Part shown: piece after piece, positions 9,279 through 27,328 of the stretch
Layout: every line of letters begins with the position of its first letter
How positions within the stretch are numbered: position 1 is the first letter of the stretch
Virus record (IMG/VR): IMGVR_UViG_3300005613_000261
Location: 1 to 32,194 of that record
Direction: 5' to 3' (one strand)
DNA from: a virus
Length of the DNA stretch: 32,194 nt
The notes under the pieces: generated by a model
The model's input: the letters and a program-made list of their open reading frames with translations, nothing else
What the model was told of the DNA's origin: nothing
Database searches by the model: none
Program-made: the position numbers and the translations under genes

Positions 9279-12200
9279 TTAGTCTTCTCCGAATTTCGAG
9301 TTACAAATTGCATAAGCCCGAGCAATGATTTCCTTCTCAGGAAGTTCGGGATGTTGTGCGCGCAAACTGATCTTGACTCTCTTTACACAACGTTCACGCT
9401 TTTCATCGTCCACGAAAGAGTCTTCATGCTTATCCGCATATTGTGTGCGCTCTTCTTTAATACTTGCAACTGCTTCTTCAAGGTGTTCCTTGCTAACAAT
9501 AGCAATATCATCATCATTAACAGAATCAGAGTCTATTGCCATTGAAACGGCGCGCATAGCAACCTCTCGGATGTAAGCACCCGTTAATCCTACTACATCT
9601 TGGGCAATGCTGTCTATTAGCGTTTCATCAACGATTACATTGCCTAAGAACAATTCGAGCATTTGTTTGGCCTCTGGAAGGTCTGGAGCATCCATATGAA
9701 TCTTAATATCAAATCTACCGGGACGATCCCTGAGGGCTTTATCAAGCTGACCCACAAAGTTAGTACTAGCCAATGTCACAATGCCAGAATTGCTTTTCAT
9801 GCCATCAAGTTGGTTTAAAAGTTCTCCTGTATATGGATTCTGAGCATCACGCGCTCGTTCCCCACCATGTGTGTCAATATCTTCTAGGAAAATAACAGAG
9901 GGAGACAGATCTCGTGCTTGTTCGAACAACCAAGCAATATGTGCTGGTCGACTAATATCTCCTGAGGTAACCCATAAACATGTAGTGTCATCACTAACTT
10001 CTTGAGACAACGCCTTAAAAATCATTGATTTCCCAACACCAGGAGGTCCCTCTAATAGAATTCCACGCTTGGTTGGCTGCTTATTCTTGACATAGATAGG
10101 CAGCTTCTTCAAGAAACCAGTGACACTACTTTTAATAGTTTTCTTTATGTCGTCCTTGAGGATTACATCCTCAAAGGTTACGAGATCTGGAGTAACAAAA
10201 GAACCATGTAAATCGATCAGGTGGCCTCGTAAGAAGTTATTATCCTTGGTATATTCGTCAAATTCTTTGATAATCTGCTTGGCCAACTTACGATCAGTAT
10301 CTTTGGAGTGGACTGTGAGCCCTGGCCAAAATCCATTAAAGTCTAGTTGAATGACAAAGTTGTTGCCCTTATCATCCTGAATGAAATGGTGGCCTGAGAA
10401 CAGAACCTCAGAATATTCACCAGGAGCAGATTCGATATCTACATGAACCAGTGGGGTTTTTGCTCCAGTTATATAATGGAAGTTATAGATCTTTTGCAGT
10501 GTGTACTGACTCTGTTCTAGATAATCCGGGAATGCTAGGGCGAGTGCATTGCGTTTAGGTGGAATCCATTCTCTATATACAGTAGCTTTATTAGACCATG
10601 TGCCAGAAAGATGTTTCTCATATAGTCTGGTATGGACGGAGTCTGCAAACTCTACTGAGTCTCTCATTTGCACACTGTTGTCTTTTGGTGGTTCTTGAGA
10701 GAAAGCGTCTTCTACAGTTTGAAGTACCAGCGGACAATACATATCATGAATAGCCCGTGGGTCTGTAGCCTTCTGTAGTTTGCTATCCATTTTATCTAGC
10801 AGCTTAGTGATAGACTTAATAGTATGTGCGCGTACCTCTTTATTATCAGAGACAATTCTGCTTACATTCTCAGCTAAGCTAGCCCAGTTCTTGCTCGCAA
10901 ATGCTTGGTCTACTAGATCAAATGCGAGATCCTTTGTTTTCCCAGTCTTTGGCCCATTACGGGTACCATGTTGATTAGAGGGGCGGTTACGACTGGCACC
11001 CTGACGAGCACCAGCACTAGGAGCGAATGGAGTAGGCTTCGCCTTTTCTACAGCCACCTTTTGCTTGGTCTCACGCTCAACTTGTTTGTCCTTCAATTTC
11101 TCGCCCTCTTCTATATCTTTGTCATCCAGGGCTGTATTTGGCATACCCTTCACGACAGCCAAGTAAGCTTCATCACCTGCTACAATTAGATCCTCTGGTT
11201 GTTTGATCATATCCCAGAACATCTTATCTCTGAAGTCACGATCATCAAGGTCTTTAGGTTGGCGACCAATAGCTCGTCTACCCTCATCTTCATTGATGAG
11301 ATACTGCATATACATTTGGGCAGTATGGTTCTCAACAGCAATCTTGGAGTCCAGATCGATCTCTTTGAAGTGAAGTTTTACTTCATGGTCTTTATGGATG
11401 GCATTAAAACTGAACCCACCCTCTAGGAGTAGTTCGCGCAAGACTTGCCAATCGAACTGCATTTCAAGATCATCTTGGATGTCTTTTACGTCGTCAATTG
11501 TATTGCCAGACAAAGTATTTGCCGTGGCGCGGTTGGATGTCCCTCCTTCGCCAAAGTCTACAGTAGAGGCACCGAGACCACCGAAAACACGTTCTTTAAA
11601 ATACTTGAGAAGACCCTCAGCTTTAAGAGCCTTACCATCTGCTCCAATTAGACGTACTTCATGACGCTCTGGAGTGACAATAACACCTTCTGGTGGTAGA
11701 TATTCTACTTTGGCCTGAACAACGTCGATCTCGCTACTGCCATCAGGATAAACCATGGCAGGACGTTCTTTCGTTCCGACGACATATTGGAATAGAGGGA
11801 AGAGATGTTGGTAGATTAAAAGGTCTACGTGCTCTTCCATACGTCGAAGAGTTCGGATATCATCCTTGACAGGCTCTACGATAGGTGTCCCAATCGGGTG
11901 TCCCACCTTTTTGTCCAGAGTAAAGTGGACGACATCGCGCCCGTTTATCTCAGGGCCTCGTTTCCCATTAGGCATAACCTGACGAGCTTTGACAATAGTA
12001 CCATCGTTCTTGCGACGGATTTGAATTGTCTCTGCAGGAACAATGAAATATCCAGCTACAGGCTGTAGAGTGACTCCTCCTACTTTACGAGGCTTGCCGT
12101 TTGAGGCTTGGGTCTTGCGGACCTTAATCCAATAACAGTTAGACTTCTGCAGCAGCTCATGCATCGTCTCTTTAAATAAGAAACGGAAAGATTTGCCCTG

Positions 12201-12572
12201 AGCGGTTTCCAACCACATGATGCGGTCATGGATATATTCGAGCGTTGTTGGGTCTCGGCCAATGAACTCATAGCCTTCTTTAAAGGCCAGTCCTTTCTTC
12301 TTTCGAATGAACTGCCTAAAATAAGACTCTGTATCTTCTACAACACCAGGTTCCCAAAGATCGTATTCTGCTTCTTCCCAAGTGTGGCGAGTGCCATATT
12401 TGCCATACCGTTCTTTATAGGCTAGCGCAGGATTTGCCAGGCCCTTGACAACAGCAGGAGAAATTGGTTTGGTAGCGTCCACAAACTCAGCCGATGCTAC
12501 ATGGACGTCTGCAAACCCGATTTTCTGTGTTACATGGCCCTGTTTTGGAGGACGGACTGGTAAATTTGGCAT
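9279..12572 (-). CDS. Portal protein fused to an AAA+ ATPase
   Basis: A single 1097-residue frame with no internal stop. Residues about 40-470 match phage portals: RQFIRKKKG, a clip-like region, DVVHFTLDKKVGHPIGTPIV, a hydrophobic helix at 248-265, and FGGLGASTVDFGEGGTSNRAT followed by DDLEMQFDW. Residues 485-550 are a charged, low-complexity linker (ARQGASRNRPSNQHGTRN). Residues about 775-1040 are a complete AAA+ module: Walker A GPPGVGKS (842-849), Walker B VIFLEDID (893-900), sensor-1 TLASTN (933-938), Arg-finger region RDRPGRFD (948-955) and a sensor-2 helix GAYIREVAMRA. The last 45 residues hold a CVKRV...AYAICNSKFG motif. The next gene overlaps closely and is the protease, the normal order. 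The upstream ribosome site is weak. No internal ATG at the junction has a good ribosome site, so a fused product is favoured. Confidence 0.85.
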   Translation of the reverse strand: MPNLPVRPPKQGHVTQKIGFADVHVASAEFVDATKPISPAVVKGLANPALAYKERYGKYGTRHTWEEAEYDLWEPGVVEDTESYFRQFIRKKKGLAFKEGYEFIGRDPTTLEYIHDRIMWLETAQGKSFRFLFKETMHELLQKSNCYWIKVRKTQASNGKPRKVGGVTLQPVAGYFIVPAETIQIRRKNDGTIVKARQVMPNGKRGPEINGRDVVHFTLDKKVGHPIGTPIVEPVKDDIRTLRRMEEHVDLLIYQHLFPLFQYVVGTKERPAMVYPDGSSEIDVVQAKVEYLPPEGVIVTPERHEVRLIGADGKALKAEGLLKYFKERVFGGLGASTVDFGEGGTSNRATANTLSGNTIDDVKDIQDDLEMQFDWQVLRELLLEGGFSFNAIHKDHEVKLHFKEIDLDSKIAVENHTAQMYMQYLINEDEGRRAIGRQPKDLDDRDFRDKMFWDMIKQPEDLIVAGDEAYLAVVKGMPNTALDDKDIEEGEKLKDKQVERETKQKVAVEKAKPTPFAPSAGARQGASRNRPSNQHGTRNGPKTGKTKDLAFDLVDQAFASKNWASLAENVSRIVSDNKEVRAHTIKSITKLLDKMDSKLQKATDPRAIHDMYCPLVLQTVEDAFSQEPPKDNSVQMRDSVEFADSVHTRLYEKHLSGTWSNKATVYREWIPPKRNALALAFPDYLEQSQYTLQKIYNFHYITGAKTPLVHVDIESAPGEYSEVLFSGHHFIQDDKGNNFVIQLDFNGFWPGLTVHSKDTDRKLAKQIIKEFDEYTKDNNFLRGHLIDLHGSFVTPDLVTFEDVILKDDIKKTIKSSVTGFLKKLPIYVKNKQPTKRGILLEGPPGVGKSMIFKALSQEVSDDTTCLWVTSGDISRPAHIAWLFEQARDLSPSVIFLEDIDTHGGERARDAQNPYTGELLNQLDGMKSNSGIVTLASTNFVGQLDKALRDRPGRFDIKIHMDAPDLPEAKQMLELFLGNVIVDETLIDSIAQDVVGLTGAYIREVAMRAVSMAIDSDSVNDDDIAIVSKEHLEEAVASIKEERTQYADKHEDSFVDDEKRERCVKRVKISLRAQHPELPEKEIIARAYAICNSKFGED

Positions 12573-15586: not shown

Positions 15587-16522
15587 TTAAAACAGTTCGC
15601 CATAGTGGGACAATGTGCCCATCGATTTTCTACGTCTGCTGTTTCCGAACATATTCCCACCAGCCCAGGCTCCAGCAAAACTACCCATAGTGGCTCCAGT
15701 ATATAGACCAGCTCGACCCCAACTTACAGATCCCATTCCACCGCCTGGAGCGAACTTGCCTCCCTTAGCAAGATTTCTTCTAGAATATGTGAGACCCGTA
15801 GGACCTATTGATCCTCCCAATTGCATCCCTGGCATCCGTTTGCCTCCCATACGAAAAAATCCGGATTTGTTGGATATCCCTGACATATATCCAGCGCTTC
15901 TTGCTCTACTAGCACCATAACCACCAGCCATACCCAAAACTGCACCACCAGCTGCACCGCCAACGATATGTCCAGCACTAAAGTCTCCAGGACCTAATCC
16001 CCAAGCAGCTTGAGTTCCACCACCGATAGCAGCCCCCATTGCTGCTCTCCTGGCGAACATAGAGAAAGCGTCAGCTGTGTTAGTAGCTGTGTTAGTAGCT
16101 GTGTTAGATGGAAGGGAAGGGCCAGTTCCAACTGGGGCTTGGGTTCTAACACGTGCTGCTGCGGGTTCTCCAGGCAGAAAAATTGGCGGTTTATAGGCTG
16201 GCATTTCGGGTAGAGGAATGCCCCCTTCAATCTCTACAGGAGCCGCTCTCTGACGGCGAACGTTTCTCAGTCTGAGTGCTTCTTGTCCACTGACTTCAGG
16301 TAGTGCATTTTGAAGAATAGGCATACCAGGACCAGCTGATGGCATAGGTGTAACTTCTGGAACACCACTAGCAAGACTGCTAAGATCGGTAGCCAAACTT
16401 CCATGTTTCCATCTCTGCGCTATGATAGCGTCTTTGGCAGCAGACAATTGACGATGGGCATCCATGAGTCGTTTAAGACCTACATATCCTTGTTCGGCAA
16501 GTGTTTGCTGGATTGTGGCCAT
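15587..16522 (-). CDS. Gly/Ala-rich hydrophobic protein, possibly virion or ejection protein
   Basis: A 311-residue protein whose ATG overlaps the TGA of TerL (TGATG). Residues 1-50 are helical (LKRLMDAHRQLSAAKDAIIA), 51-130 are Pro-rich and likely extended, with a 12-base tandem repeat that encodes repeated Asn-Thr-Ala-Thr. Residues about 150-300 alternate Gly and Ala with hydrophobic residues (GGAAGGAVLGMAGGYGASRA; GLYTGATMGSFAGAWAGGN), a pattern of glycine-zipper-like membrane-active proteins. It ends in RRRKS. The 280-residue protein beyond the HNH gene has a similar character, so both might be injected or membrane-inserted virion proteins. Inference only; no family named. Confidence 0.65.
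   Translation of the reverse strand: MATIQQTLAEQGYVGLKRLMDAHRQLSAAKDAIIAQRWKHGSLATDLSSLASGVPEVTPMPSAGPGMPILQNALPEVSGQEALRLRNVRRQRAAPVEIEGGIPLPEMPAYKPPIFLPGEPAAARVRTQAPVGTGPSLPSNTATNTATNTADAFSMFARRAAMGAAIGGGTQAAWGLGPGDFSAGHIVGGAAGGAVLGMAGGYGASRARSAGYMSGISNKSGFFRMGGKRMPGMQLGGSIGPTGLTYSRRNLAKGGKFAPGGGMGSVSWGRAGLYTGATMGSFAGAWAGGNMFGNSRRRKSMGTLSHYGELF
16073..16107 (-). repeat. 12-base tandem repeat inside the Gly/Ala-rich gene
   Basis: About 2.8 copies of a 12-base unit (agctgtgttagt on the plus strand) inside the coding region. The unit is four codons long, so copy changes keep frame and vary the length of an Asn-Thr-Ala-Thr linker. Confidence 0.85.
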
Positions 16523-19500
16523 CAGAATGTTCTCCTCTGCGGTTTGCTATGTGATCTTCGGACCATTTTGGAACTAGCGAACTTTCGCTTCTCTTGATTC
16601 TCAGTATCACTACTCCAACCGTATCTATATTCAGGTGGTTCGTTATGTTTAGGGTGCTGATCTAGTTTAGAGGTACGGGAGTAGTTTTGTTCATTATACC
16701 TTTCTGCCATTTTTTCAGCTACATAACCTGGTTCATATTGAGCCCTTAGAGCAATCATACCCATTGCTGGTGCACCATGTTGATCTCTAGGGACATTAGC
16801 CATATATTCTTCATAGGTGACATCACCTTTTTGAACAGTTTGGCGGATCATACTAGAACCAAAACCAGTGAATCCTACTGAAGTAGCCACTTCACCTTCT
16901 GGGGCAAAGGCTGACATATGTAGTCTATAGGGGATCAGTGCAAGATTTAAAGCATCTAATCTATGGTCACCGACAGAGATACTATTCATTCCATATCTTG
17001 GAACTCCAGAAGGAGAGACACCGGCTACGATATAGTTTAATAGCTGTTTAGTTAGGAAAGGATCCTTAGCCGGAAAGTGAATACGTGCTTCTTCAAACCG
17101 ACGCACCGAGTTCTCTACCAAGAAAGCCTTGGCATCCGTCTTCTTCATCTCTCCGGTCATTGGGTCTCTGTATTCTTGCTTACCACCAAAGTCATAGGAA
17201 TACAGAGTTTTAACTAGTTTGGCAATAGGTAGTTCAGGATTGGTCTGTGACGCTTCTAACGCCATGCGTTGCATGATTTCGATCTGTGTATTATGGAGTA
17301 AGAACCCATTACCACAGAACGATTTGTCTTCTTGAATTTCTAGATCAAGGAGTCCGTGTGTCTCGCCAATTTTCTCGAAGCTAGCGATTGGGACCAAGAT
17401 ATAGTTTGGAGTATCGACCCATTTTCTGCGGTCAATACGATCCGGATTATATAGATCGATACCAATGATTTTAGATACTTGATTGATATCTTGTGTATTC
17501 CCACCTAGATTGATTTTTAATTGATCATGGTGGTTGTCTTTCTTAGAGGGGGCAAGGTATAGACTGGGCAGTATGCCTCTGTCTATAAAATATTGTCTGA
17601 CCTGCATGATCAGAGAATAGCTTGTAAGGGCTAGCTCAACATAGGGTTGATCTTGATGGATGTGACCGTCACCATATAAAAGCCCTTGCATCAATGATGT
17701 TAAATCAAAATCTAACAAATGGGGATGGATACGCTTGTTACGAGCATATTTACCGCCAAAGAGTTTCATAATGTGTGAGACTATACGGCCTGTGACAGTA
17801 ACACGCCGAGAAGACTGAGCGTTTCCACCACGTCGATGTTCAACTGTTACTACAGGGAACAGTGTCATTGCGGCATCAATCAAGTCATCAAATTCTTTTT
17901 GATTATGATGATCACATTGTGATAACTCAACAAAACGAGGATCTACAGACCCCTCAGATAAGTACCACCCTAAAAACAAGAGAAACTCATGTGAGGCAAC
18001 ATCCAGGTATCGATTGAATCTTACTTGCTGAATGTGGACCCAATCCAGGCCATACTTATCTGTTAAATAGGAAGCAATCTCTTTCTGTTTGGGTTGTGTG
18101 GGAGTAACACCGTTTTTTAAAGTTTTACGTGCTCGTCGGATAGTAGCCTCTCCACAATCACATTCTATAGCTAGTTTCTTTGCTGATAGAGGATTGTTTG
18201 GTGAGAAACCATGATCACACCACATATGATTATCATCATAGCTAATACCTTCCATATCAATCCATTCAGTTAGATCAATTATGGATGGTTTTGTTTCTGA
18301 TGTTCTGTGTGTTTTTGGGATTGCAACAAAATCTAGTTCGGGATCAATCTCTTTACAGCTACGCCAGCTTAACTCCTCTTCATCAAATGATGAATCGTGG
18401 AATCTATTTATGGTGCGATAGGTTAAAAACGGGTGTTCCTCACTGATAATTGTTTCCAGACATTTTGAAGGACGTATCCTATATGCTGTTTTTGGAGCTG
18501 CAACACATTTATCCAACACAGGCTTGTAGTGGCCTGACTTAGTCAAGACAAGATCCCCTGGGACAATGTCTTTGATCGTCTTGCAGCCGTCTAGCGTTTG
18601 GATAATGGTCTCTGGCCCTACACATGCTCCATAGCCACGGTCAACATATACGAAGTCTGGTGTCCACTTAGCATTCATCTTGACAATTGCGTCGACTGCT
18701 TTAGTTTGTTGCCAGTCTTGTTTGGGTACATTTAAAGCATCAACGGCCCAACAGTGCATGGTTGTCCTGTCCATACCTACAACAATGATTTCAGTACCTG
18801 CATTGGTGTTCCAGTCTACACCCATCGTATAGTACCAAGTAGAATTTCGTTGGTGAATTGGTATCTGTATACCATCAGGACCGATATAAGGTTCTCTTTG
18901 ATTATAAGTATATGCTGTTTCCGCTGCGGCAATATATGCAGGTTGATAGACACCAGCAATCTGAGCAATGAACAAAGCCATATACTCAGTAAGGAAGTGT
19001 TCGTGGGTGCCGTCTGCTTCTGCTTCTTCTTTAACCTCTTCCCAGTGGGGCAGAATAGTGGACGGGAAGAAGAACTCTTTGAACCGAGCATCAGCCATCG
19101 AGCGATTATAGAACCACTCTCTCTTACCAGTAGGTGTACTGGACACCATTAGACGAACATTAGGGCTAGTGATCTGAATAGGACGGATAGCACGTGTAAT
19201 ATCTGCTGTATCCATCCTGTCAACCTCATCTAATAGGATGACATCTGCTGCTTGACCCAGAACAGTCCCAGCCTCTTGTTTGGAGTTAGTCCCGGTGGTG
19301 AACCCTTGAATCTTAGAACCATTACTGAATTCAATAGAGTGGAATGGGGTCTTGACTCTCCTGATAACCCGAATGGCTTTATTTCGGGAGACCATTGTAT
19401 CAACGATGCCAAAAATGAGTTCAATCTGCGATAAGAATGGTGTAGCGACCAGGACTTGTGGCCCTCGATAAACATCATTCCCCTCGGCGTCTTTACCCGT

Positions 19501-20277
19501 ATGAATCTCTGTAGTGAGGCAATAGTGTAAGATGCTCATACACTCGCCCCAAGTTTTACCAGCTCGACGTCCCTCTCGCAGAACTATGTTCTTGGAGGTA
19601 CACATCAAATTGAGTTTTTGATTATCACGTGGGTCTAAACCAGTCCATTCACGAACCCACTTGACTGGATCTAGATAGGTTAACAGCTTATCTTGTTCTT
19701 CTGGTGTAGAGGTCTTCTTAATCTTGGCAGGGAGTTCATACTTAGACGGGATAAACTTACAGGGACACTTAAAGAACGTAAGGTGTTCCCACTCGACCCA
19801 GCCCTCTTTGCGTTCAGAAATAATGCGTAACCGACTATCACACTTGAGACAGTGGGCTTGTTCCATCATTGCTCTGTCATCAGAATAGACAACAGGATGC
19901 TTTTCTTGATGCTCTAGACAAACACCACGGATAGTCGCTGTATTGATTCGGCACCAGTTTCCTTTTCTCTGTAATATAGAGACGATCTGCCCAGCTCTAA
20001 GAGTAGCTACCTTTTTGCCTTTTACAGTAGGCTCTTGTCGCATTGGGGCCTTAGGAGTGCGGACAGCATACTCGTTGGAGTCTTTGTATTTCTCAATCTG
20101 ATTGATCTGACAATTCAGACAAGCGTTATGTACTTTTTGGCCTCGCTTGGTATGCGTATTAAGGTTGTACTCTTTTACATAATGACGCACTACTTTGGGA
20201 TCAGGAGGAGCCCAATAGTCAATATGCTTAACGCCGTATTCGTTTTCTACGAGGGATAGTGGTAGATCTTCTAACAT
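16522..20277 (-). CDS. terL: Terminase large subunit (TerL) containing an intein
   Basis: DNA-packaging motor ATPase and nuclease. ATG 20277 is chosen because AGAGG precedes it; a GTG at 20316 in the same frame has no ribosome site. Length 1251 residues, of which 445 are an intein. Motifs: Walker A-like REGRRAGKT (234-242), Walker B VILLDEVDRM with D350/E351, coupling motif SSTPTG (379-384), RNase H-like nuclease GVDWN with D488, VDRGYG with D546, and the third acidic site GDHRLDALNLAL after the intein. N-terminal extras: C53/C56 and C143, C146, C171, C173 look like zinc ligands, and residues about 71-119 (RTPKAPMRQEPTV, WCRIN) resemble a bacterial SH3 domain. It overlaps the HNH gene by 50 bases. 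Confidence 0.93.
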   Translation of the reverse strand: MLEDLPLSLVENEYGVKHIDYWAPPDPKVVRHYVKEYNLNTHTKRGQKVHNACLNCQINQIEKYKDSNEYAVRTPKAPMRQEPTVKGKKVATLRAGQIVSILQRKGNWCRINTATIRGVCLEHQEKHPVVYSDDRAMMEQAHCLKCDSRLRIISERKEGWVEWEHLTFFKCPCKFIPSKYELPAKIKKTSTPEEQDKLLTYLDPVKWVREWTGLDPRDNQKLNLMCTSKNIVLREGRRAGKTWGECMSILHYCLTTEIHTGKDAEGNDVYRGPQVLVATPFLSQIELIFGIVDTMVSRNKAIRVIRRVKTPFHSIEFSNGSKIQGFTTGTNSKQEAGTVLGQAADVILLDEVDRMDTADITRAIRPIQITSPNVRLMVSSTPTGKREWFYNRSMADARFKEFFFPSTILPHWEEVKEEAEADGTHEHFLTEYMALFIAQIAGVYQPAYIAAAETAYTYNQREPYIGPDGIQIPIHQRNSTWYYTMGVDWNTNAGTEIIVVGMDRTTMHCWAVDALNVPKQDWQQTKAVDAIVKMNAKWTPDFVYVDRGYGACVGPETIIQTLDGCKTIKDIVPGDLVLTKSGHYKPVLDKCVAAPKTAYRIRPSKCLETIISEEHPFLTYRTINRFHDSSFDEEELSWRSCKEIDPELDFVAIPKTHRTSETKPSIIDLTEWIDMEGISYDDNHMWCDHGFSPNNPLSAKKLAIECDCGEATIRRARKTLKNGVTPTQPKQKEIASYLTDKYGLDWVHIQQVRFNRYLDVASHEFLLFLGWYLSEGSVDPRFVELSQCDHHNQKEFDDLIDAAMTLFPVVTVEHRRGGNAQSSRRVTVTGRIVSHIMKLFGGKYARNKRIHPHLLDFDLTSLMQGLLYGDGHIHQDQPYVELALTSYSLIMQVRQYFIDRGILPSLYLAPSKKDNHHDQLKINLGGNTQDINQVSKIIGIDLYNPDRIDRRKWVDTPNYILVPIASFEKIGETHGLLDLEIQEDKSFCGNGFLLHNTQIEIMQRMALEASQTNPELPIAKLVKTLYSYDFGGKQEYRDPMTGEMKKTDAKAFLVENSVRRFEEARIHFPAKDPFLTKQLLNYIVAGVSPSGVPRYGMNSISVGDHRLDALNLALIPYRLHMSAFAPEGEVATSVGFTGFGSSMIRQTVQKGDVTYEEYMANVPRDQHGAPAMGMIALRAQYEPGYVAEKMAERYNEQNYSRTSKLDQHPKHNEPPEYRYGWSSDTENQEKRKFASSKMVRRSHSKPQRRTF
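17290..18624 (-). mobile_element. Intein with LAGLIDADG homing endonuclease in TerL
   Basis: Residues 552-996 of TerL. It begins with Cys (CVGPETIIQTLDG, splicing block A), carries block B-like SEEHPFLTY, and ends FCGNGFLLHN followed by Thr as the +1 residue, the standard class 1 splice site. Two dodecapeptide motifs for a LAGLIDADG endonuclease are visible, FLLFLGWYLSEGSVD and LMQGLLYGDGHIH. It interrupts the terminase nuclease motif DRGYGA/TQIEIM, a conserved site that inteins favour. Length (445 residues) fits a full intein with endonuclease. It is probably able to splice and perhaps home. Confidence 0.92.
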
Positions 20278-20644
20278 AAACCTCTGGGTGTTTCTTTTTG
20301 TTTTGAGCCACAACACGTTGCAGCTTTTTGATCATTTGTTGATTACCGTTATGTAAGTCTGTTTCATAACGATGGCATTTCCAACACAATGTTACACCAT
20401 TATCTATATTGAATACCAATTCCGGGTACTTGGCCTTCATCAATATATGGTGTGGTTCAATATATACTTTTGTCGCGTGGCATAGTTGGCAAGTATAATC
20501 ATCTCTACGGTAGACTGCTGCTCTCCACCTAGCCCAAGCCTTCGAGTGACGAAGACGTTCCATCTTACTCTGACTTGTAGTACTCTTTGCCTTCCGGCGC
20601 TTTTTTGACTTGGTCTTCTTACGTTTTCGTTCGTAAACTTTCAT
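20228..20644 (-). CDS. HNH endonuclease next to TerL
   Basis: A 138-residue, very basic protein. HNH features: C52 and C55 (CQLC), EPHHI with H65/H66, N82 (DNGVTL), C87xxC90 and H91 (CWKCH), giving a zinc-bound His-Asn-His nuclease. Phage HNH proteins beside terminase are often required for genome packaging and cleavage together with TerL; others are free homing nucleases. Its ATG overlaps the stop of the gene before it (TAATG) and it overlaps TerL by 50 bases, a tight arrangement that favours a packaging role, although the intein in TerL shows mobile nucleases are active in this locus. No clear ribosome site; translation is probably coupled. Confidence 0.88.
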   Translation of the reverse strand: MKVYERKRKKTKSKKRRKAKSTTSQSKMERLRHSKAWARWRAAVYRRDDYTCQLCHATKVYIEPHHILMKAKYPELVFNIDNGVTLCWKCHRYETDLHNGNQQMIKKLQRVVAQNKKKHPEVYVRRSTTIPRRKRIRR

Positions 20645-21486
20645 TACATCATACGTAGTGAAGACACATGCATGTAGTTCGCTTCGTTACCAAGTGCACT
20701 CCGAGCATTCATGTGGTGCCTTTGGATAGCCTGTAAAGATCTTTGTCTCATAGTCTGTGCCTTACCTGTTTGGAATGCGGCCATATTGCCGGTGATATCA
20801 ACGGGTATATGTCTGGGACTGGCTGCAATATCTGCCTTAAATTTACCCGCCATATGGGCATAACCAGCTGCATGGGCCATTACAGGAATTAATCCTGGAC
20901 CCATTACTCTGCTGGCCAGATGGAAACCGGCGAAGAACAGAGACTCTTTCGCCACTCCTCCTGCTGCCCCAACAAGACCACCTTTATGAAAACCTTCTAT
21001 ACCAGATTTAATGGCAAAATAGGGACCAAGGGCATACATAGCCAATGGGACACCACGAGAGATATATTTTCCAGCGGTTTTCCCGAAGATCCTAGCTGTC
21101 GTTGCTCCAGTCTTTGTACCTGCCCATTCTGCACCTTTATCTGTGAGCATGTGACCTTCCCATGCAAACGGTGACTGACCTTGGGCTATTTGAGATAGAG
21201 AGCCTGTCTTTTCAAAACCAAAACCCATCCAATGAGCAGCGAAGTTACTCTTGCCATATATGACATCACCGCCAGCCATCTCCAACACACCGCGTGTAAA
21301 TGGAGATGCCATTTCACCGAGTGCTGCAGGGACACTAGCAACAGCGGCGCTGCCAATAGAACCTGTCTTTCTATAGGCGCTTCTCCATGCTTCTGATCCA
21401 GCAGGCATACCAATAAGCTGCATCTGCCGATAGGAGCGCTTCTCTAGAAAGCTCATCCCCTCTAGTCTTGGGTCTTGTCCATACAT
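20644..21486 (-). CDS. Ala/Gly-rich virion-like protein
   Basis: A 280-residue protein with GAGG before ATG. Residues 1-40 are basic and helical. From residue 40 there are repeated hydrophobic and Gly/Ala-rich stretches (GSAAVASVPAALGEMASPF; GVPLAMYALGPYFAIKSG; GGLVGAAGGVAKESLFFAGF; GPGLIPVMAHAAGYAHMAG). Many Met and His occur at the C-terminus. The pattern resembles membrane-penetrating ejection proteins. It lies between the giant exonuclease-SNase protein and the HNH/TerL pair, and resembles in style the 311-residue protein after TerL. Function inferred from composition and context; no family match. Confidence 0.65.
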   Translation of the reverse strand: MYGQDPRLEGMSFLEKRSYRQMQLIGMPAGSEAWRSAYRKTGSIGSAAVASVPAALGEMASPFTRGVLEMAGGDVIYGKSNFAAHWMGFGFEKTGSLSQIAQGQSPFAWEGHMLTDKGAEWAGTKTGATTARIFGKTAGKYISRGVPLAMYALGPYFAIKSGIEGFHKGGLVGAAGGVAKESLFFAGFHLASRVMGPGLIPVMAHAAGYAHMAGKFKADIAASPRHIPVDITGNMAAFQTGKAQTMRQRSLQAIQRHHMNARSALGNEANYMHVSSLRMM

Positions 21487-21491
21487 TTACA

Positions 21492-24400
21492 TCAACCTCG
21501 ATTAGAACTACGCCAGGTAGCATAGTCCTTGTTTGCTAGTCTATCAGCTTCTTCATTTCCTGGCGCCATACGTTGGTGGCGCTTAACTCTATTAGCTTTT
21601 GTAGAGAACTCCATCTTCTTGCGGTGAGTTGCCACTAAATCTGTATCAGCCATACCCGATCTAGGAGGGGTTATCGAAACAGTCGGGGAACCACCTGTAT
21701 GTGGCTGAGCTTTGGAAATATGGATAGCATCATTGGTTGCCTTGGCTAAAGTATCTCCTCTATCACCACGATTCATATAAGCTAGTACTTCATCATCTTT
21801 CATCTTAAAGATATGTTGCCACTCACTATCATCATTCATCTGAGAGATGCGTTTCCATACCTCGTTATCATGTCTTTTGGTGATACCTAGAAGGACCTTG
21901 GTGCTTGCAGGATCGTTTTGCATCATGTCCTGCCACATAGACAGATACTCTCCTCGTTTCATACGTTCGTGTAGAGGAGACTTTGTTGTCATATCGATAA
22001 CATCAGCATAGGGTAAATTAGCGGGTGGCTGGTCAATAATCTGAGCTATTTGTTCTAGATCTTGACGGCCCCGAATCAGACCCTCTTTCACCATAGCTCT
22101 ATAGCCTTCTGGAGTGACACGTTGCCCCACAGCTATATTGACCAATGCAGCTCTGGTGTCTCCAGCATTTCTGAGTTGTTCAGAAATACCAGTAGGATGT
22201 GAAGCAGGTTCGATTGCTTTAGCCGCCCATTTGGTTTCCATAGGAATAGAGTCAGCTAGGATCTCAGCGGCCATTGCCTTGCGGATTTTAACAGCTCTAT
22301 ATTCATTCTTAAGAGCTACTTCAGCAGCTTCGGAGATTCCTAGTTTGAACGGGCTACCCCAACCATAATACTGACGGTTCTGTTTGGACGTACCTCGACC
22401 TTGCATACCTACCACAGTATTGTATGGTCCTGGTTGGCCTGCAATGCGACTGGTCTCGGTTTGTTTCCAGAACCTGCGTTTATTGTAGGAACCGAACCGC
22501 CCATATGTATAACGTAGTCTATTTCCGACAGCACCAGCTTCAACAAGATCATCTTGGGTGACATAACCTTGGTATTGTGTATGCCACATTGTGGTCATTA
22601 GTTCAGTGAGGTGTTGATCTTTTACAAGCTTGTCCATTCTGGTCAATGTGTTGAAGGTAATAGACATACCTGTCGCCTCGGCAGCTTGTTTGTAGGTTTG
22701 CCAGAAAGGTTCTTTCCACATACCCCTGCGGGCGGCTACAGACTGTTGTTCTGCTATCTTGAACTGAGGACGATCGATTACCGAGGAACCAGCTTCTCCG
22801 TAAGGAAGGAATGCGGCGAGCCCTTGCTTGACAAGCTGCATGTTGATGTTCTGCATTTGATCGCCATACAGAACACCAATATGTCTGCCATATGTCTTCT
22901 GATTAGGATTAAACACAACAGTTAATGTATCTTGTGCTTCTAGGATTCTCCGGAATGCTTCGGAAGATTGTCTACCCCAGGGTTGGTCCTGTTGAATACG
23001 AACAGGCCGCAGAGGGTCACCTTTGTGACCTCCTACCTCTGGTGCGTCTAGACCAGCTAATCGGATGGAGATCTTTTTGCCTGTAGCTTGCCCGTGCCAT
23101 CCTCTTTTCTGAAGAATCAGGGTGTCAGCATCATCAAACTCATAGATATATTTATTAGGATTGATCTTAAGCGCATAAAGATCATCACTAAAGTTTGGGT
23201 TAATACCTTCAAAGGCAGACAGGTCTTGTACTCGGATAGCATCGGCTGTGCTTAATGAGCCCAGATCCTTTTGTGCTTTCTTTTGACGGCGCTCAATATC
23301 AGCTTCCATCGCTGCTCTACGACCTGGTTCCTGCCAAACAGTACGGTTAAAACGATCGATACGATCACCAATCGACCAGGAAGAATGCATCATTAGGCTT
23401 GGTGGGAGAATTGCACTAAGAATACCTTGCCAACCCGAACCAAATTCAGTAGACAAGGCTCTCAATTCAGGAGACAAACCCTCTTCAGGAAAACCGTCAA
23501 TGTCTCGCTGACTATCGTTATCTAATCCTTTGCGTTTAGATGTGGCAACCAACAGAGACACACCAACAGCAGCTAATCCGAATGCAGCAATGGCATTACC
23601 TGTACGAAGATTCTTAGGCATGATGGACTGTAGTGCTTTTTGTACATCTTTAGCACCAGCTTTTGAAGTAAGCCTGAGTGGTGTGCCTTTAGTCCCAGCT
23701 TCAGCCCAAATACGCTCCACGGTTTCTTTGCCGAGGATACGCTCTGCTAGTCGCTCGTCGTGAAACATCATTCGTACTTCATCATCAGATAGGCCTGCTA
23801 CATACTTCTCTATCTTGCTATAGTCGATATTATATTGTCTGCGTTCAGAGAACTGTCTCACAGCTTCTTGAAACTGTTCCCAGTTCTCTGGAGTGACACG
23901 CCGAGTATATGGAACTTCTGCTTTGAAAATCTCTTGGCCAGCTTTCATCTTCTGGACAAAACCAGAACGTTCAATCTCAATACCAAATGTGTCGGCACCA
24001 GCTTTAGCTCGTGGACGGAGACTTTCTCTACCCTCTGTGGCGTAGTAAATTCTACCCTCCATTAAGTTCTTGGCATAAGCTTCCGTAGCCATAACTGATT
24101 CGACATCACCTAAAATGCCTAAGAATTTCATCTTATCCTTAGCGAGTTGCTTACCAGCACTTAAGTCACTAGCAATGCTCCACAGATAGGTGCCTACTTT
24201 ACGCTCATTGCCCACATCAATAGCAGCACGGTGAGAAAAAGAGCGAATAGCTTCATCAGCCTGAGGTGCTGCATTACCAGCCATATCCATAGCTTTATTA
24301 AGGACGTCCATAGACGCAATACCAATAGGTTGCTTTCCATAGACCATACTGAATAATGTACGAGCCAGGGTTAGTGTATCCCGGATTGCATAACGACTTG

Positions 24401-25283
24401 GGGCCTCAGAAGATCCAAAGGCTCTTAGGACACGCCAACCATCTCCGCCACGTATCCATGACATCTTAGCTTGTAGAAGACGTTTGCCGCTTTCAAATAA
24501 GATTCCACGGTATCTGGCCTTAGCAGGTGCTGTTTCCGACAGACCATGAAGTCTTTCCATGATCTGTTCTGCACGTGATACATCATTCGCAACACCAGTT
24601 TTGGTGACGGCTTGTAAAGTCTTCCCAATTTGCTTCATATCAAATGGAACATTGTGTAAGACTAGTGCTCTTTCAGAGCCACCTTTGGACTCCAAAATAT
24701 GAACAAATTCATCCATTGCGTCCAGGAAGCTAGTCCGTTTATAGTTATGATATGAACCAGGAGTTTGAGCAGCCGTTAGTTGCTGGGCTCTTTTAGCATA
24801 TGCGTCAAGTTCGGTCCTGTTGGTAGTGGCATCTAGGAACTCATTATAGATAGCATCTTTACCTACTGCTCTTTTGGTGAACCAGGATCCAATATCCAAG
24901 ATGCCTCTATAGTTGCCTTTGTGTGCTTGTTCAACACGTCTAGCAAATGCATTGCGAGACATAGTCCTGTACTTGCCCGTCTTGTCGATAAATCCCGGAT
25001 CAACTACCCAGGTGTGATAAGTGGGACCTTTAGGACCTTTAGGATCAAACAGAGATATCTCAGTAATAACTGCATTGTCTGCTAATCCCGTGGTCTCAAT
25101 GTCTGCCCAAGCAGCATTTTCCCAGGGGAATAGTTCCGGTAGTGGAGTAGAGGGTTTTCTTATCTGGCGGCGGGATGCCTTGGCGGCAGCTGTGGCGAAT
25201 AAAGGATTATTAGAGAATGGATAATCAGCCTCTTCAACAGCCTGTGATTCAATCTCTTTGGCCCATATAGGTCGATTGGCCAC
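21492..25283 (-). CDS. Giant nuclease: DEDDh exonuclease, membrane segment and staphylococcal-nuclease domain
   Basis: A 1263-residue protein starting at GTG 25283, shortly after the previous gene, with GGTGA upstream. N-terminal domain (about 55-375) is a DnaQ-like 3'-5' exonuclease: ADIETTGL (D61, E63), LHNVPFD (D215), IRDTLTLARTLF (D302) and SHRAAID (H351, D356), so all five DEDDh residues are present. A hydrophobic helix at about 563-581 (IAAFGLAAVGVSLLVATSK) could span a membrane. Residues about 710-862 are an SNase (thermonuclease) domain: EFDDADT (D720), R741, GLDAPE (D746, E749), KTYGR (R800) and GMWKEPFW. The last 30 residues carry a fragment like the RNase H final motif (HQRMAPGNEEADRLA). 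It lies upstream of TerL and may process DNA or be carried in the virion. No such fusion is known to me. Confidence 0.88.
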   Translation of the reverse strand: MANRPIWAKEIESQAVEEADYPFSNNPLFATAAAKASRRQIRKPSTPLPELFPWENAAWADIETTGLADNAVITEISLFDPKGPKGPTYHTWVVDPGFIDKTGKYRTMSRNAFARRVEQAHKGNYRGILDIGSWFTKRAVGKDAIYNEFLDATTNRTELDAYAKRAQQLTAAQTPGSYHNYKRTSFLDAMDEFVHILESKGGSERALVLHNVPFDMKQIGKTLQAVTKTGVANDVSRAEQIMERLHGLSETAPAKARYRGILFESGKRLLQAKMSWIRGGDGWRVLRAFGSSEAPSRYAIRDTLTLARTLFSMVYGKQPIGIASMDVLNKAMDMAGNAAPQADEAIRSFSHRAAIDVGNERKVGTYLWSIASDLSAGKQLAKDKMKFLGILGDVESVMATEAYAKNLMEGRIYYATEGRESLRPRAKAGADTFGIEIERSGFVQKMKAGQEIFKAEVPYTRRVTPENWEQFQEAVRQFSERRQYNIDYSKIEKYVAGLSDDEVRMMFHDERLAERILGKETVERIWAEAGTKGTPLRLTSKAGAKDVQKALQSIMPKNLRTGNAIAAFGLAAVGVSLLVATSKRKGLDNDSQRDIDGFPEEGLSPELRALSTEFGSGWQGILSAILPPSLMMHSSWSIGDRIDRFNRTVWQEPGRRAAMEADIERRQKKAQKDLGSLSTADAIRVQDLSAFEGINPNFSDDLYALKINPNKYIYEFDDADTLILQKRGWHGQATGKKISIRLAGLDAPEVGGHKGDPLRPVRIQQDQPWGRQSSEAFRRILEAQDTLTVVFNPNQKTYGRHIGVLYGDQMQNINMQLVKQGLAAFLPYGEAGSSVIDRPQFKIAEQQSVAARRGMWKEPFWQTYKQAAEATGMSITFNTLTRMDKLVKDQHLTELMTTMWHTQYQGYVTQDDLVEAGAVGNRLRYTYGRFGSYNKRRFWKQTETSRIAGQPGPYNTVVGMQGRGTSKQNRQYYGWGSPFKLGISEAAEVALKNEYRAVKIRKAMAAEILADSIPMETKWAAKAIEPASHPTGISEQLRNAGDTRAALVNIAVGQRVTPEGYRAMVKEGLIRGRQDLEQIAQIIDQPPANLPYADVIDMTTKSPLHERMKRGEYLSMWQDMMQNDPASTKVLLGITKRHDNEVWKRISQMNDDSEWQHIFKMKDDEVLAYMNRGDRGDTLAKATNDAIHISKAQPHTGGSPTVSITPPRSGMADTDLVATHRKKMEFSTKANRVKRHQRMAPGNEEADRLANKDYATWRSSNRG

Positions 25284-25285
25284 AA

Positions 25286-26107
25286 TTATTCACCGTCATA
25301 ATCCTCCGCTTCTGTAATGTCAATTACATCAGCCTCTTCAGCATCTAATAGCTGACGGACTTTGGAAGCGAGTCGCGTAGTTTCTTTGACAGCATCCATA
25401 ACTTCTTCACTATTACCAATAATTTTAGCCTTTTCTCTACGGGTCGCAACCATTTCCCTAAGGAGATCTTTACGTTGCCGGTGGACCTTTTCTTTCATTG
25501 CAAATGCTGGGTGTTCTCTCAGTGTTGTGTGGACATTGCCATTCTCATCAATATGAGATGTCTCTTCTATAACAAGGCGCTGGGCCGATTCTTTGGCTAA
25601 TACAAGGTTCAGTCTATGATCCATAACATCTAGTTCGGCTAATTTAGTAACGATAGCAATATCAGTAATATCCTCTGGATCAATTCGATATTCTTCAACC
25701 ATATCCATGATTTTTCGAGCCAGGACATTAGACTCTACTGGACATTGTGAGAGTACAGGCCACACAGAATCCTGAGTGCTTATCTCACCACTTTTATTAT
25801 ACTCGGTAAAAGGACAAGTTTCTACGAATGGACATTGTACTCCGGTACAAATCAATGGCACTGTCGCGTGTGTCCCTGTGCGTAATGAAGAAACATGAGC
25901 GATTAGCCTTTTGGCTTGCTTCTTGGTGAGTTGCATGTTGTTGACACGTTCTGCGGGAAGTTTTAAGAACTTGAAAAAACTTTGTTTTTCTTGCCCTGAC
26001 AGAAAACGATCCTCGACTTCAACCAAAGCTGTGCTATTGTCTTCTTCCTCAGTCTCAACTTCTTCGTTGGCAATCTTACGAAGGATTTCTCGTTCTCTAT
26101 TATTCAT
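25286..26107 (-). CDS. Four-cysteine protein, possible small-terminase-like
   Basis: A 273-residue protein. ATG 26107 is chosen over a TTG at 26113 because GAGG sits at correct distance; the start overlaps the end of the neighbouring gene. Residues 80-125 contain four cysteines, C87, C92, C98 and C122, in the arrangement C-x4-CP-x5-CPF...CP, a probable metal site. The rest is acidic N-terminal helix and long helices (EKVHRQRKDLLREMVATR; SKVRQLLDAEEADVIDI). I recall this Cys pattern from hypothetical proteins in large phages located near terminase, so a small-terminase role is possible but not shown. It is five genes from TerL. The C-terminus is rich in Asp and Glu. Confidence 0.7.
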   Translation of the reverse strand: MNNREREILRKIANEEVETEEEDNSTALVEVEDRFLSGQEKQSFFKFLKLPAERVNNMQLTKKQAKRLIAHVSSLRTGTHATVPLICTGVQCPFVETCPFTEYNKSGEISTQDSVWPVLSQCPVESNVLARKIMDMVEEYRIDPEDITDIAIVTKLAELDVMDHRLNLVLAKESAQRLVIEETSHIDENGNVHTTLREHPAFAMKEKVHRQRKDLLREMVATRREKAKIIGNSEEVMDAVKETTRLASKVRQLLDAEEADVIDITEAEDYDGE

Positions 26108-26453
26108 CAGCAATCCTCTTTAACCAACCATCTAGCCTATCCCGAATAGATGTGATCTGTTTAACAATGCCATCTTTCTGCTGTGTTGTCCATAACTTAT
26201 GAGTCTTCTGGGCATAGTTGCAGTCAGCACCAATAGTCGTATCATAGATGAACGTATGATACATCCCTACAGCTGTTTTGTTCATAAGATTGGTACTGAT
26301 ATTGATCATATCTGAACACAAATCAGCTAGTTCCAGCAATAACTCGTCTGGCTCGTGTTTCCCAGTCTGATTGATCGTTCCAGTCGATGTGGACTGTTTG
26401 TTTGTAGTACCATCTACCTGCGGAGTCTTGGTAAGGTTCTTGGACTTGGCCAT
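26100..26453 (-). CDS. Small unknown protein overlapping the M15 peptidase gene
   Basis: A 117-residue protein with ATG 26453, eleven bases after AGGAGG; a GTG at 26465 touches the ribosome site and is unlikely. Its first 30 residues are Thr/Ser/Gln rich (TKTPQVDGTTNKQSTSTGTI) and probably disordered; the rest is helical (LLLELADLCSDMINIS; QITSIRDRLDGWLKRI). The first 131 bases overlap the 3' end of the M15 peptidase gene in another frame, an unusually long overlap. It overlaps the next start by eight bases. Unrecognised. The long overlap suggests that either this start or the other stop is not the one used. Confidence 0.55.
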   Translation of the reverse strand: MAKSKNLTKTPQVDGTTNKQSTSTGTINQTGKHEPDELLLELADLCSDMINISTNLMNKTAVGMYHTFIYDTTIGADCNYAQKTHKLWTTQQKDGIVKQITSIRDRLDGWLKRIADE

Positions 26454-26931
26454 ATAGCAAAGCACCTCCTAGTGAGTCAATACTTCTACAAGGAAGGCTA
26501 ACATGGATCCATGAAAATCTTCCGCTGACCTCATGTCGTACTTGTCCAAAAGCATTAGGACACTTGTTTATAAACCATAACCATACATCTTGGAAAGCAA
26601 TACCAGGTACATAAATATCGGCGGCTTGTCCTCTTGTGTGGGGAGACCGACCATCATAGTTCTTCCGCTGTCGTACTGTGCGGACAGCGTAGTCTAAACC
26701 ATCCCATTGATTATCAGCATTTGTAATAGAATATCTAAATCCGCTATAAATCATAACGGGAACCATGAAATATTTGCGTAGTGGTTCTAAGATACCGTCA
26801 CAAAGAAGTTGCATATCGTCTAAATAAGGATGCATCTTCCCATAATGAAAATTCTTATCTCGATAGTCTTTCATCCAGGTATCACAGAACTCACTCAATT
26901 TAAAGTGAGGACTTAGTTGTATATCACGCAT
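26323..26931 (-). CDS. M15-family peptidase (endolysin-like)
   Basis: A 202-residue protein. It shows the M15 (DD-carboxypeptidase or L-Ala-D-Glu endopeptidase) signature: SPHFKLSEF at the start, YSGFRYS, SPHTRGQAADI with zinc ligands H98 and D105, and SWIHVSL with H143. These bind Zn2+ and cleave peptidoglycan peptides, so it is probably the endolysin or a virion wall hydrolase. There is no signal peptide. ATG 26931 overlaps the previous gene by eight bases. The last 45 residues extend beyond the enzyme core and overlap the next gene in another frame for 131 bases. The core ends about residue 150, so the tail may be dispensable. Confidence 0.86.
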   Translation of the reverse strand: MRDIQLSPHFKLSEFCDTWMKDYRDKNFHYGKMHPYLDDMQLLCDGILEPLRKYFMVPVMIYSGFRYSITNADNQWDGLDYAVRTVRQRKNYDGRSPHTRGQAADIYVPGIAFQDVWLWFINKCPNAFGQVRHEVSGRFSWIHVSLPCRSIDSLGGALLYGQVQEPYQDSAGRWYYKQTVHIDWNDQSDWETRARRVIAGTS

Positions 26932-27328
26932 AGTCTTGTTCCTTCATAGCATCGACAAAAGGATCTAATTCTCCATCTAATGTGGCATTATAAGGACAAA
27001 CGATCTTGGTCCTGTGGTCCTTGGCTGTACCTCGAATAGCATGATAAGTCCGTACAATCTGTTGATTCGTTTGTGAAATCGGTCGATTATCGGTCGTTTT
27101 TAGATCCAGATGGGCCATGAGACGATCTACTAAGGTCAGAAAGGCTTCTTTCTTATTCTGCTCTCTAGACTTATGTCGAGTAGAAACAGCTGTGACACCT
27201 GTCTCTCTATGTGTCATCCGGCAACATAAAGCCTTCTTGTTTCTCTTCTGTCCACCAGGACCTCGACCCGTGAAATACTCAATATCAAAGTCTTTCTTTC
27301 TGGCAGAAAAGATAACTTCCTTACTCAT
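26924..27328 (-). CDS. RF-1-like GGQ protein (peptidyl-tRNA hydrolysis domain)
   Basis: A 134-residue protein holding the class I release-factor catalytic domain: GRGPGGQKRNKK (GGQ at 25-27), then RMTHRETGVTAVSTRHKSR, as in RF-1 domain proteins. The GGQ loop enters the ribosomal peptidyl-transferase centre and hydrolyses peptidyl-tRNA. It lacks the codon-recognition domain of RF1/RF2, so it is more like ArfB/ICT1 or RF-H rescue factors. The C-terminus (KTTDNRPISQTNQQIVRTY, DGELDPFVDAM) contains no obvious basic tail. A phage copy could help free stalled ribosomes late in infection. ATG 27328 overlaps the upstream stop, with GGAG upstream. Confidence 0.85.
   Translation of the reverse strand: MSKEVIFSARKKDFDIEYFTGRGPGGQKRNKKALCCRMTHRETGVTAVSTRHKSREQNKKEAFLTLVDRLMAHLDLKTTDNRPISQTNQQIVRTYHAIRGTAKDHRTKIVCPYNATLDGELDPFVDAMKEQDYA

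Follow-up and report, generated by a model that had tools for sequence, protein, structure and literature searches.

Why would a phage encode two nucleases of different fold on a single chain, and place the gene among those for its head and for the packaging of its DNA? The question is raised by a 32,194-base virus record from IMG/VR (IMGVR_UViG_3300005613_000261; hereafter the window), which encodes a large terminase subunit (TerL), a portal, and matches to a major head protein and a baseplate protein, and which probably covers just part of a larger phage genome. At 21492..25283, on the minus strand like all window features given below, an open reading frame (ORF) with a GTG start, a GGAGG sequence upstream of it and 0 internal stops encodes a protein of 1263 residues, in which a DEDDh exonuclease domain, a hydrophobic helix and a staphylococcal nuclease (SNase) domain follow one another from the N- to the C-terminus. 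A first reading made from the letters and their translations (the sequence-only reading) had proposed an ejected or head-packaged enzyme that degrades host DNA or trims phage ends, and had found the arrangement unfamiliar. We find that both domains carry conserved catalytic residues, that the protein belongs to a modular family with a conserved gene neighbourhood, and that a linear motif is restricted to its gene. The function that we favour, at a probability of roughly 55%, is that of a virion-carried, ejected multi-enzyme effector of the polyvalent type in large contractile-tailed phages.

Two nuclease domains on one chain

The SNase domain (residues ~712-860; 22704..23150) is recognised by Pfam PF00565 over residues 740-857 (E=4.9e-14, 53.1 bits against a cut-off of 21), and its best match in PHROG is phrog_8809. 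An AlphaFold2 (AF2) model of residues 587-991, with a mean pLDDT of 72 and an ordered part from about residue 637 to 926, matches Staphylococcus aureus nuclease (1stn and others) in Foldseek with E 9e-7, a probability of 1.00 and a TM-score by target of 0.71-0.76, while the family SNase profile retrieves thermonuclease sequences from the PDB (E 2e-7). The catalytic residues D720, R741, D746, E749 and R800, which we take to be equivalent to D21, R35, D40, E43 and R87 of staphylococcal nuclease, are found exactly where the sequence-only reading had placed them, and together with T721 and P748 they are invariant in eight family members with 31-64% identity to the window protein (alignment A4). 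Profile, fold and catalytic set thus assign the domain to the staphylococcal nuclease superfamily; it shares fold and catalytic equivalents with the thermonuclease, but lies in the middle of a longer chain, preceded by a conserved helical lead-in and by the FGS motif described below.

The N-terminal domain (residues ~55-372; 24168..25121) has no family match in Pfam and a weak match in PHROG, to phrog_192 (DNA polymerase exonuclease subunit; 0.0049), so that the earlier exonuclease call needed independent support. A two-sequence profile of this region returned irrelevant PDB matches alone (a Thoeris anti-defence protein, E 0.45). The AF2 model of residues 1-400 (pLDDT 72.7, pTM 0.76) has RNase T, a TREX1 homologue, DexA of T4 and ExoX as its top PDB matches in Foldseek (probability ~0.9-1.0, best E 3e-3), which argues for an RNase H-like exonuclease fold. 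The DEDDh residues follow in order as D-x-E (D61/E63; motif I, residues 58-66, 25086..25112), N-x-x-F-D (D215; motif II, residues 210-216, 24636..24656) and H-x4-D (H351/D356; motif III, residues 351-356, 24216..24233), all five at the positions first named, and a 15-sequence profile (A5) aligns the three motifs in order with the PolC-type DnaQ 2p1j at an E of 0.038, which is suggestive. Among these 15 family members (17-53% identity to the window) D61, E63, H351 and D356 are kept without exception, and position 215 is an acid in nearly all: D in the window, in L043 and in the closest relative, L002 (50% identity across the whole chain), and E in most others, where motif II takes the NAxFE rather than the Asp form. 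In a second, more distant set of N-terminal domains none of the five residues is lost, motif II having its D as well. In shuffled sequences a looser exonuclease pattern arose in 9 of 1300 and the SNase pattern in 0 of 1300.

On the strength of its modelled fold and conserved residues we regard the N-terminal domain as a DEDDh exonuclease of predicted activity. It has the fold and catalytic set of RNase T, TREX1-like enzymes, DexA and ExoX in common, and differs from them in the large insertions between its motifs (residues 61, 215, 351) and in its fusion to an SNase. In one relative (L081, 2677-6912) an intein-like sequence appears to break the exonuclease directly after motif II, between WIANTAFE and CLGENTLL.

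A modular family in a fixed slot before TerL

Viral contigs were scanned with the conserved middle segment of the protein, which yielded 13 loci, and then with the SNase alignment, which gave 80 of 125. After removal of duplicates 65 non-redundant SNase ORFs of 312-2418 residues remained, some of them truncated. Fifty of the 65 are recognised by one or more of seven exonuclease profiles (some derived from the same family sequences), and the SNase pattern is intact in 57; the two catalytic patterns, which are crude, are satisfied together in 34. The arrangement that had seemed unfamiliar is therefore not unique, the co-occurrence being found in at least 34 non-redundant family members.

Other relatives carry further modules in place of, or beside, the exonuclease: kinase-like domains score above the Pfam cut-off in L007 and L083, and HExxH motifs (HEGLH/HERVH) occur in several. 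The presence of both nucleases in many relatives, together with the swapped or added modules, indicates that the dual-nuclease combination is a recurrent, modular architecture. A GNAT-like stretch in L006 and an NlpC/P60-like one in L015 were seen by eye alone, have no Pfam match and are not claimed. Two members, L089 and L057, lack the synteny described below and are probably not orthologues.

The same comparison bears on whether one or both domains might no longer be active, their role being structural or the binding of nucleic acids. The E of motif II in most relatives would fit such a loss, as would those relatives that give no exonuclease match; however, the five canonical DEDDh residues of the window and L002, as well as the SNase pattern intact across most of the family, speak against it, and we consider it very unlikely.

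The gene order is conserved as g275, dual-nuclease gene, g280, TerL, g146, g215, g503 and portal. TerL lies downstream in 63 of the 65 loci, g280 in 62 and g275 is present in 54, most of the remaining loci being cut by contig ends. In the window the upstream neighbour g275 (25286..26113) is a homologue of ME3_9 (E 6e-48) and of KLEB27-3 gp005 (3.5e-37), and the downstream neighbour g280 (20644..21486), a Gly/Ala-rich hydrophobic protein of 280 residues, is a homologue of ME3_12 (E 5.8e-6) and KLEB27-3 gp009 (9.8e-12). The sequence-only reading had put the gene beside TerL; it is close but not adjacent, g280 and an HNH endonuclease gene standing between them.

Profiles of g275, g280, TerL and portal find homologues in the same order in the cultured phages ME3 and KLEB27-3, and Moorella phage MTATph1 has TerL, portal and a weaker g275 match. 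With the ME3 sheath protein as query, homologues were found in 10 of 12 long records, in which the Pfam sheath model gave no match; their presence indicates a contractile-tailed lineage related to ME3, a phage itself annotated as related to 0305phi8-36. No relative was found among cultured phages by tblastn with the window protein, L058 or L009; there the middle segment of the window protein gave weak SNase matches only, and its exonuclease chance-level matches only. A genome scan for a host or prophage gave no clear family member among the matches listed (best E 3e-11), which, judged by E-value and record title, look like ordinary bacterial SNases.

In ME3 the slot flanked by the homologues of g275 and g280 is occupied by a head-closure protein (T4 gp4-like/TnsA-like) and by ME3_11 (Acinetobacter phage ME3, KU935715), a protein of 529 residues annotated as hypothetical, which has DTETTG and NHRFE motifs, a later His/Asp pair, a phrog_192 match (4.7e-5) and a hydrophobic helix near its C-terminus. 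ME3_11 shares with the window protein its slot (ME3_9 upstream; ME3_12 and TerL downstream), the N-terminal DEDDh-type motifs and the helix, but it ends soon past the helix, no SNase domain or FGSGW motif being found in it, and its motif II acid is E.

ME3 carries its SNase in the 2329-residue hub protein ME3_37 (PF00565 4.7e-14; a member of phrog_8809), and an SNase-related domain has been reported in the baseplate hub homologue of BtI1 (PMC2147016). The domain that these hubs have in common with the window protein would suit a baseplate-hub or tail-tip component with nuclease modules. This is largely refuted and in our view scarcely probable, given that the hubs of BtI1 and of ME3, the latter bearing an M23 peptidase, belong to the tail gene block, whereas the gene studied here lies with TerL and portal, away from the tail genes, and that a separate ME3_37-like ORF of 1919-3492 residues is present elsewhere in 10 of 12 related records, a count that covers the relatives' records, since the window record stops short of that region. 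The uncultivated lineage carries its two nucleases on a single chain and encodes its hub in an ORF apart from it, and we rejected the dual-nuclease protein as a hub of the T4 gp27/ME3_37 type on that ground.

The hydrophobic helix, the FGS motif and a possible function at entry

Between the two nuclease domains lies a hydrophobic helix (residues 564-582; 23538..23594; Kyte-Doolittle 2.05 over 19 residues), which bears out the membrane-like helix noticed at first. It is followed by the first copy of a linear motif, FGSGW (residues 586-621; 23421..23528), with an E of 8.8e-16 to a motif hidden Markov model (HMM) of which the window is one of 12 seed sequences. A degenerate second motif of this type (residues ~949-980; 22344..22439) aligns with the copy in L002 (motif HMM E 0.0024) and is uncalled by the motif HMM in the window itself. 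The consensus of this FGS motif is G-[LM]-x-[EH]-x-G-x-A-x3-R-K-x2-T-[DE]-F-G-S-[PG]-[YW]. There are 80 copies of it, spread over 53 of the 65 proteins at 1-6 per protein and most often placed 82-97 residues ahead of the first SNase aspartate; in the window it is predicted to be disordered (AF2 pLDDT below 50).

In ten whole virus records (45-243 kb; eight with a match), and likewise across ~1.5 Mb of loci, the FGS motif is confined to this gene. This restriction speaks for a motif that works in cis or together with a single partner, and it led us to reject a general virion-targeting tag. An I/L-x-E prohead-protease site was also considered; the E is not conserved. A search with a degenerate DNA pattern for the motif gave no match. 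Docking, processing or translocation are guesses at its role.

How might such a chain act? Phage polyvalent proteins are encoded with portal/terminase genes and are predicted to be packaged and injected (Iyer et al., 2017, PMC5512222). The window family has in common with the polyvalent proteins of phages and conjugative elements the large single chains of unrelated enzyme domains, here two nuclease folds and, in relatives, kinase-like domains and HExxH motifs, as well as the portal/terminase context, with TerL downstream in nearly every locus; the fixed syntenic slot and the one repeated linear motif are features of its own, and SNase is not mentioned in the main text of the polyvalent-protein paper (PMC5512222). 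An ejected effector is suggested by (i) the two folds with their conserved catalytic sets, (ii) the fixed slot in the packaging block, present also in cultured ME3 with ME3_11, (iii) the kinase-like domains and HExxH motifs in this slot, which are modules as in injected effectors, (iv) the hydrophobic helix and the hydrophobic neighbour, (v) the finding, in 10 of 12 long records, of a sheath homologue and of a hub ORF apart from this gene, and (vi) the precedents of the polyvalent proteins (PMC5512222) and of the BtI1 hub homologue, a protein of virion type with an SNase (PMC2147016). The ejected or head-packaged degrader of host DNA first proposed is thus still the best reading, its virion location and ejection being what we infer from packaging-block synteny and effector-like modules.

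The dual-nuclease protein would be made late from the head/packaging gene block, be incorporated in the particle and enter the cell together with the phage DNA, where the helix, perhaps with g280, may help it to reach or anchor at the inner membrane. The SNase would cut internally and the DEDDh exonuclease would digest 3' ends, so that host DNA (or RNA, or competing DNA) could be destroyed and recycled early in infection, and the FGS motif may be a disordered separator or a docking/processing site that allows enzyme modules to be swapped in one conserved slot. Some observations weigh against an ejected effector. A helix with a hydrophobicity of at least 1.6 is found somewhere in 29 of the 65 family ORFs, and more than half of the relatives have no helix that reaches this value; no LPD or polyvalent-associated Pfam match at E<=0.1 was found in the window protein, so we describe it as one that would work like a polyvalent protein and do not claim it as a filed member; and the motif II acid, E instead of D in most relatives, means that some of these may be weakly active.

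The trimming of phage ends, the other half of the sequence-only proposal, is less likely because the kinase-like and HExxH modules found in the slot would not act on DNA, yet the ME3 gene group does contain a head-closure nuclease. That protein, T4 gp4-like/TnsA-like, together with TerL and portal nearby in nearly all loci, would fit a nuclease of packaging or head completion, a partner of TerL in the producing cell that removes branches from concatemers or trims DNA ends and has no effector role in the next host. We consider this rather unlikely: besides the modules that misfit end trimming, the hydrophobic helix speaks against it, and SNase-type enzymes are poorly sequence-specific, so that such an enzyme would endanger the phage genome. 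Two complementary nucleases would also suit complete turnover of host DNA by an intracellular, non-virion enzyme, which obtains nucleotides by degrading the host chromosome or wards off superinfecting phages, and the virion location of the dual-nuclease protein is a predicted one; however, the conserved gene position within the structural/packaging block, and a hydrophobic helix and motif-separated modular layout unusual for such enzymes, make it a distinctly improbable alternative.

Taking the ejected effector further, it is tentatively conceivable that large phages of the ME3/0305phi8-36 type use the slot before TerL as a modular injection cassette, where exonuclease, SNase, kinase-like and metalloprotease-like domains are combined by shuffling into a single chain, with a dedicated linear motif of ~37 residues between them, a docking, processing or translocation signal unique to the gene, for a dual-nuclease strike on host DNA at entry. 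Each domain is known, as are multi-enzyme phage proteins; no SNase-DEDDh phage fusion was found in the literature searched, and the dual-nuclease chain and its wide spread among uncultivated phages are new with respect to the literature and collections searched, as are its fixed place ahead of TerL and the motif specific to its gene. They define an undescribed protein family of uncultivated large phages and tie it to the hypothetical gene ME3_11 of a cultured phage, through which virion location and nuclease function can be put to a direct test. If the proposal is true, the known means by which phages take over, or protect themselves in, a newly infected cell would gain an ejected dual nuclease and a slot for domain shuffling that has a linear motif of its own.

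Other genes of the neighbourhood

The HNH endonuclease gene downstream of g280 (20228..20644; PF01844 7.9e-6, phrog_144 1e-16) is seen in the window and L002 only, L002 being the sole match among the first loci. TerL (16522..20316; phrog_2 5.6e-17; Terminase_6N, Hint and LAGLIDADG matches) contains an intein (residues 565-1009; 17290-18624) with Hint and LAGLIDADG-like parts, which is absent from the TerL of L002; TerL ORFs of 1000 or more residues in several relatives may also hold inserts. In its N-terminal part, at residues ~89-125, the window TerL has an SH3-like match (SH3_3 7.9e-7). Intein-like sequences are seen in g275 homologues as well, as an insert in L002 (457-2520) that the window g275 does not have, and as a PF14890 match in ME3_9.

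The portal of the window (9279-12572) is fused to a C-terminal AAA ATPase domain (PF00004 5.4e-22), a fusion seen in none of the other loci compared, many of which are cut within the portal. Upstream of g275 lies an M15-type peptidase/endolysin gene (26323-26931), found at that position in few relatives, and then a gene (26924-27328) for a 134-residue RF-1 domain protein with a GGQ motif (PF00472 1.1e-15), which resembles peptidyl-tRNA rescue factors of the ArfB type.

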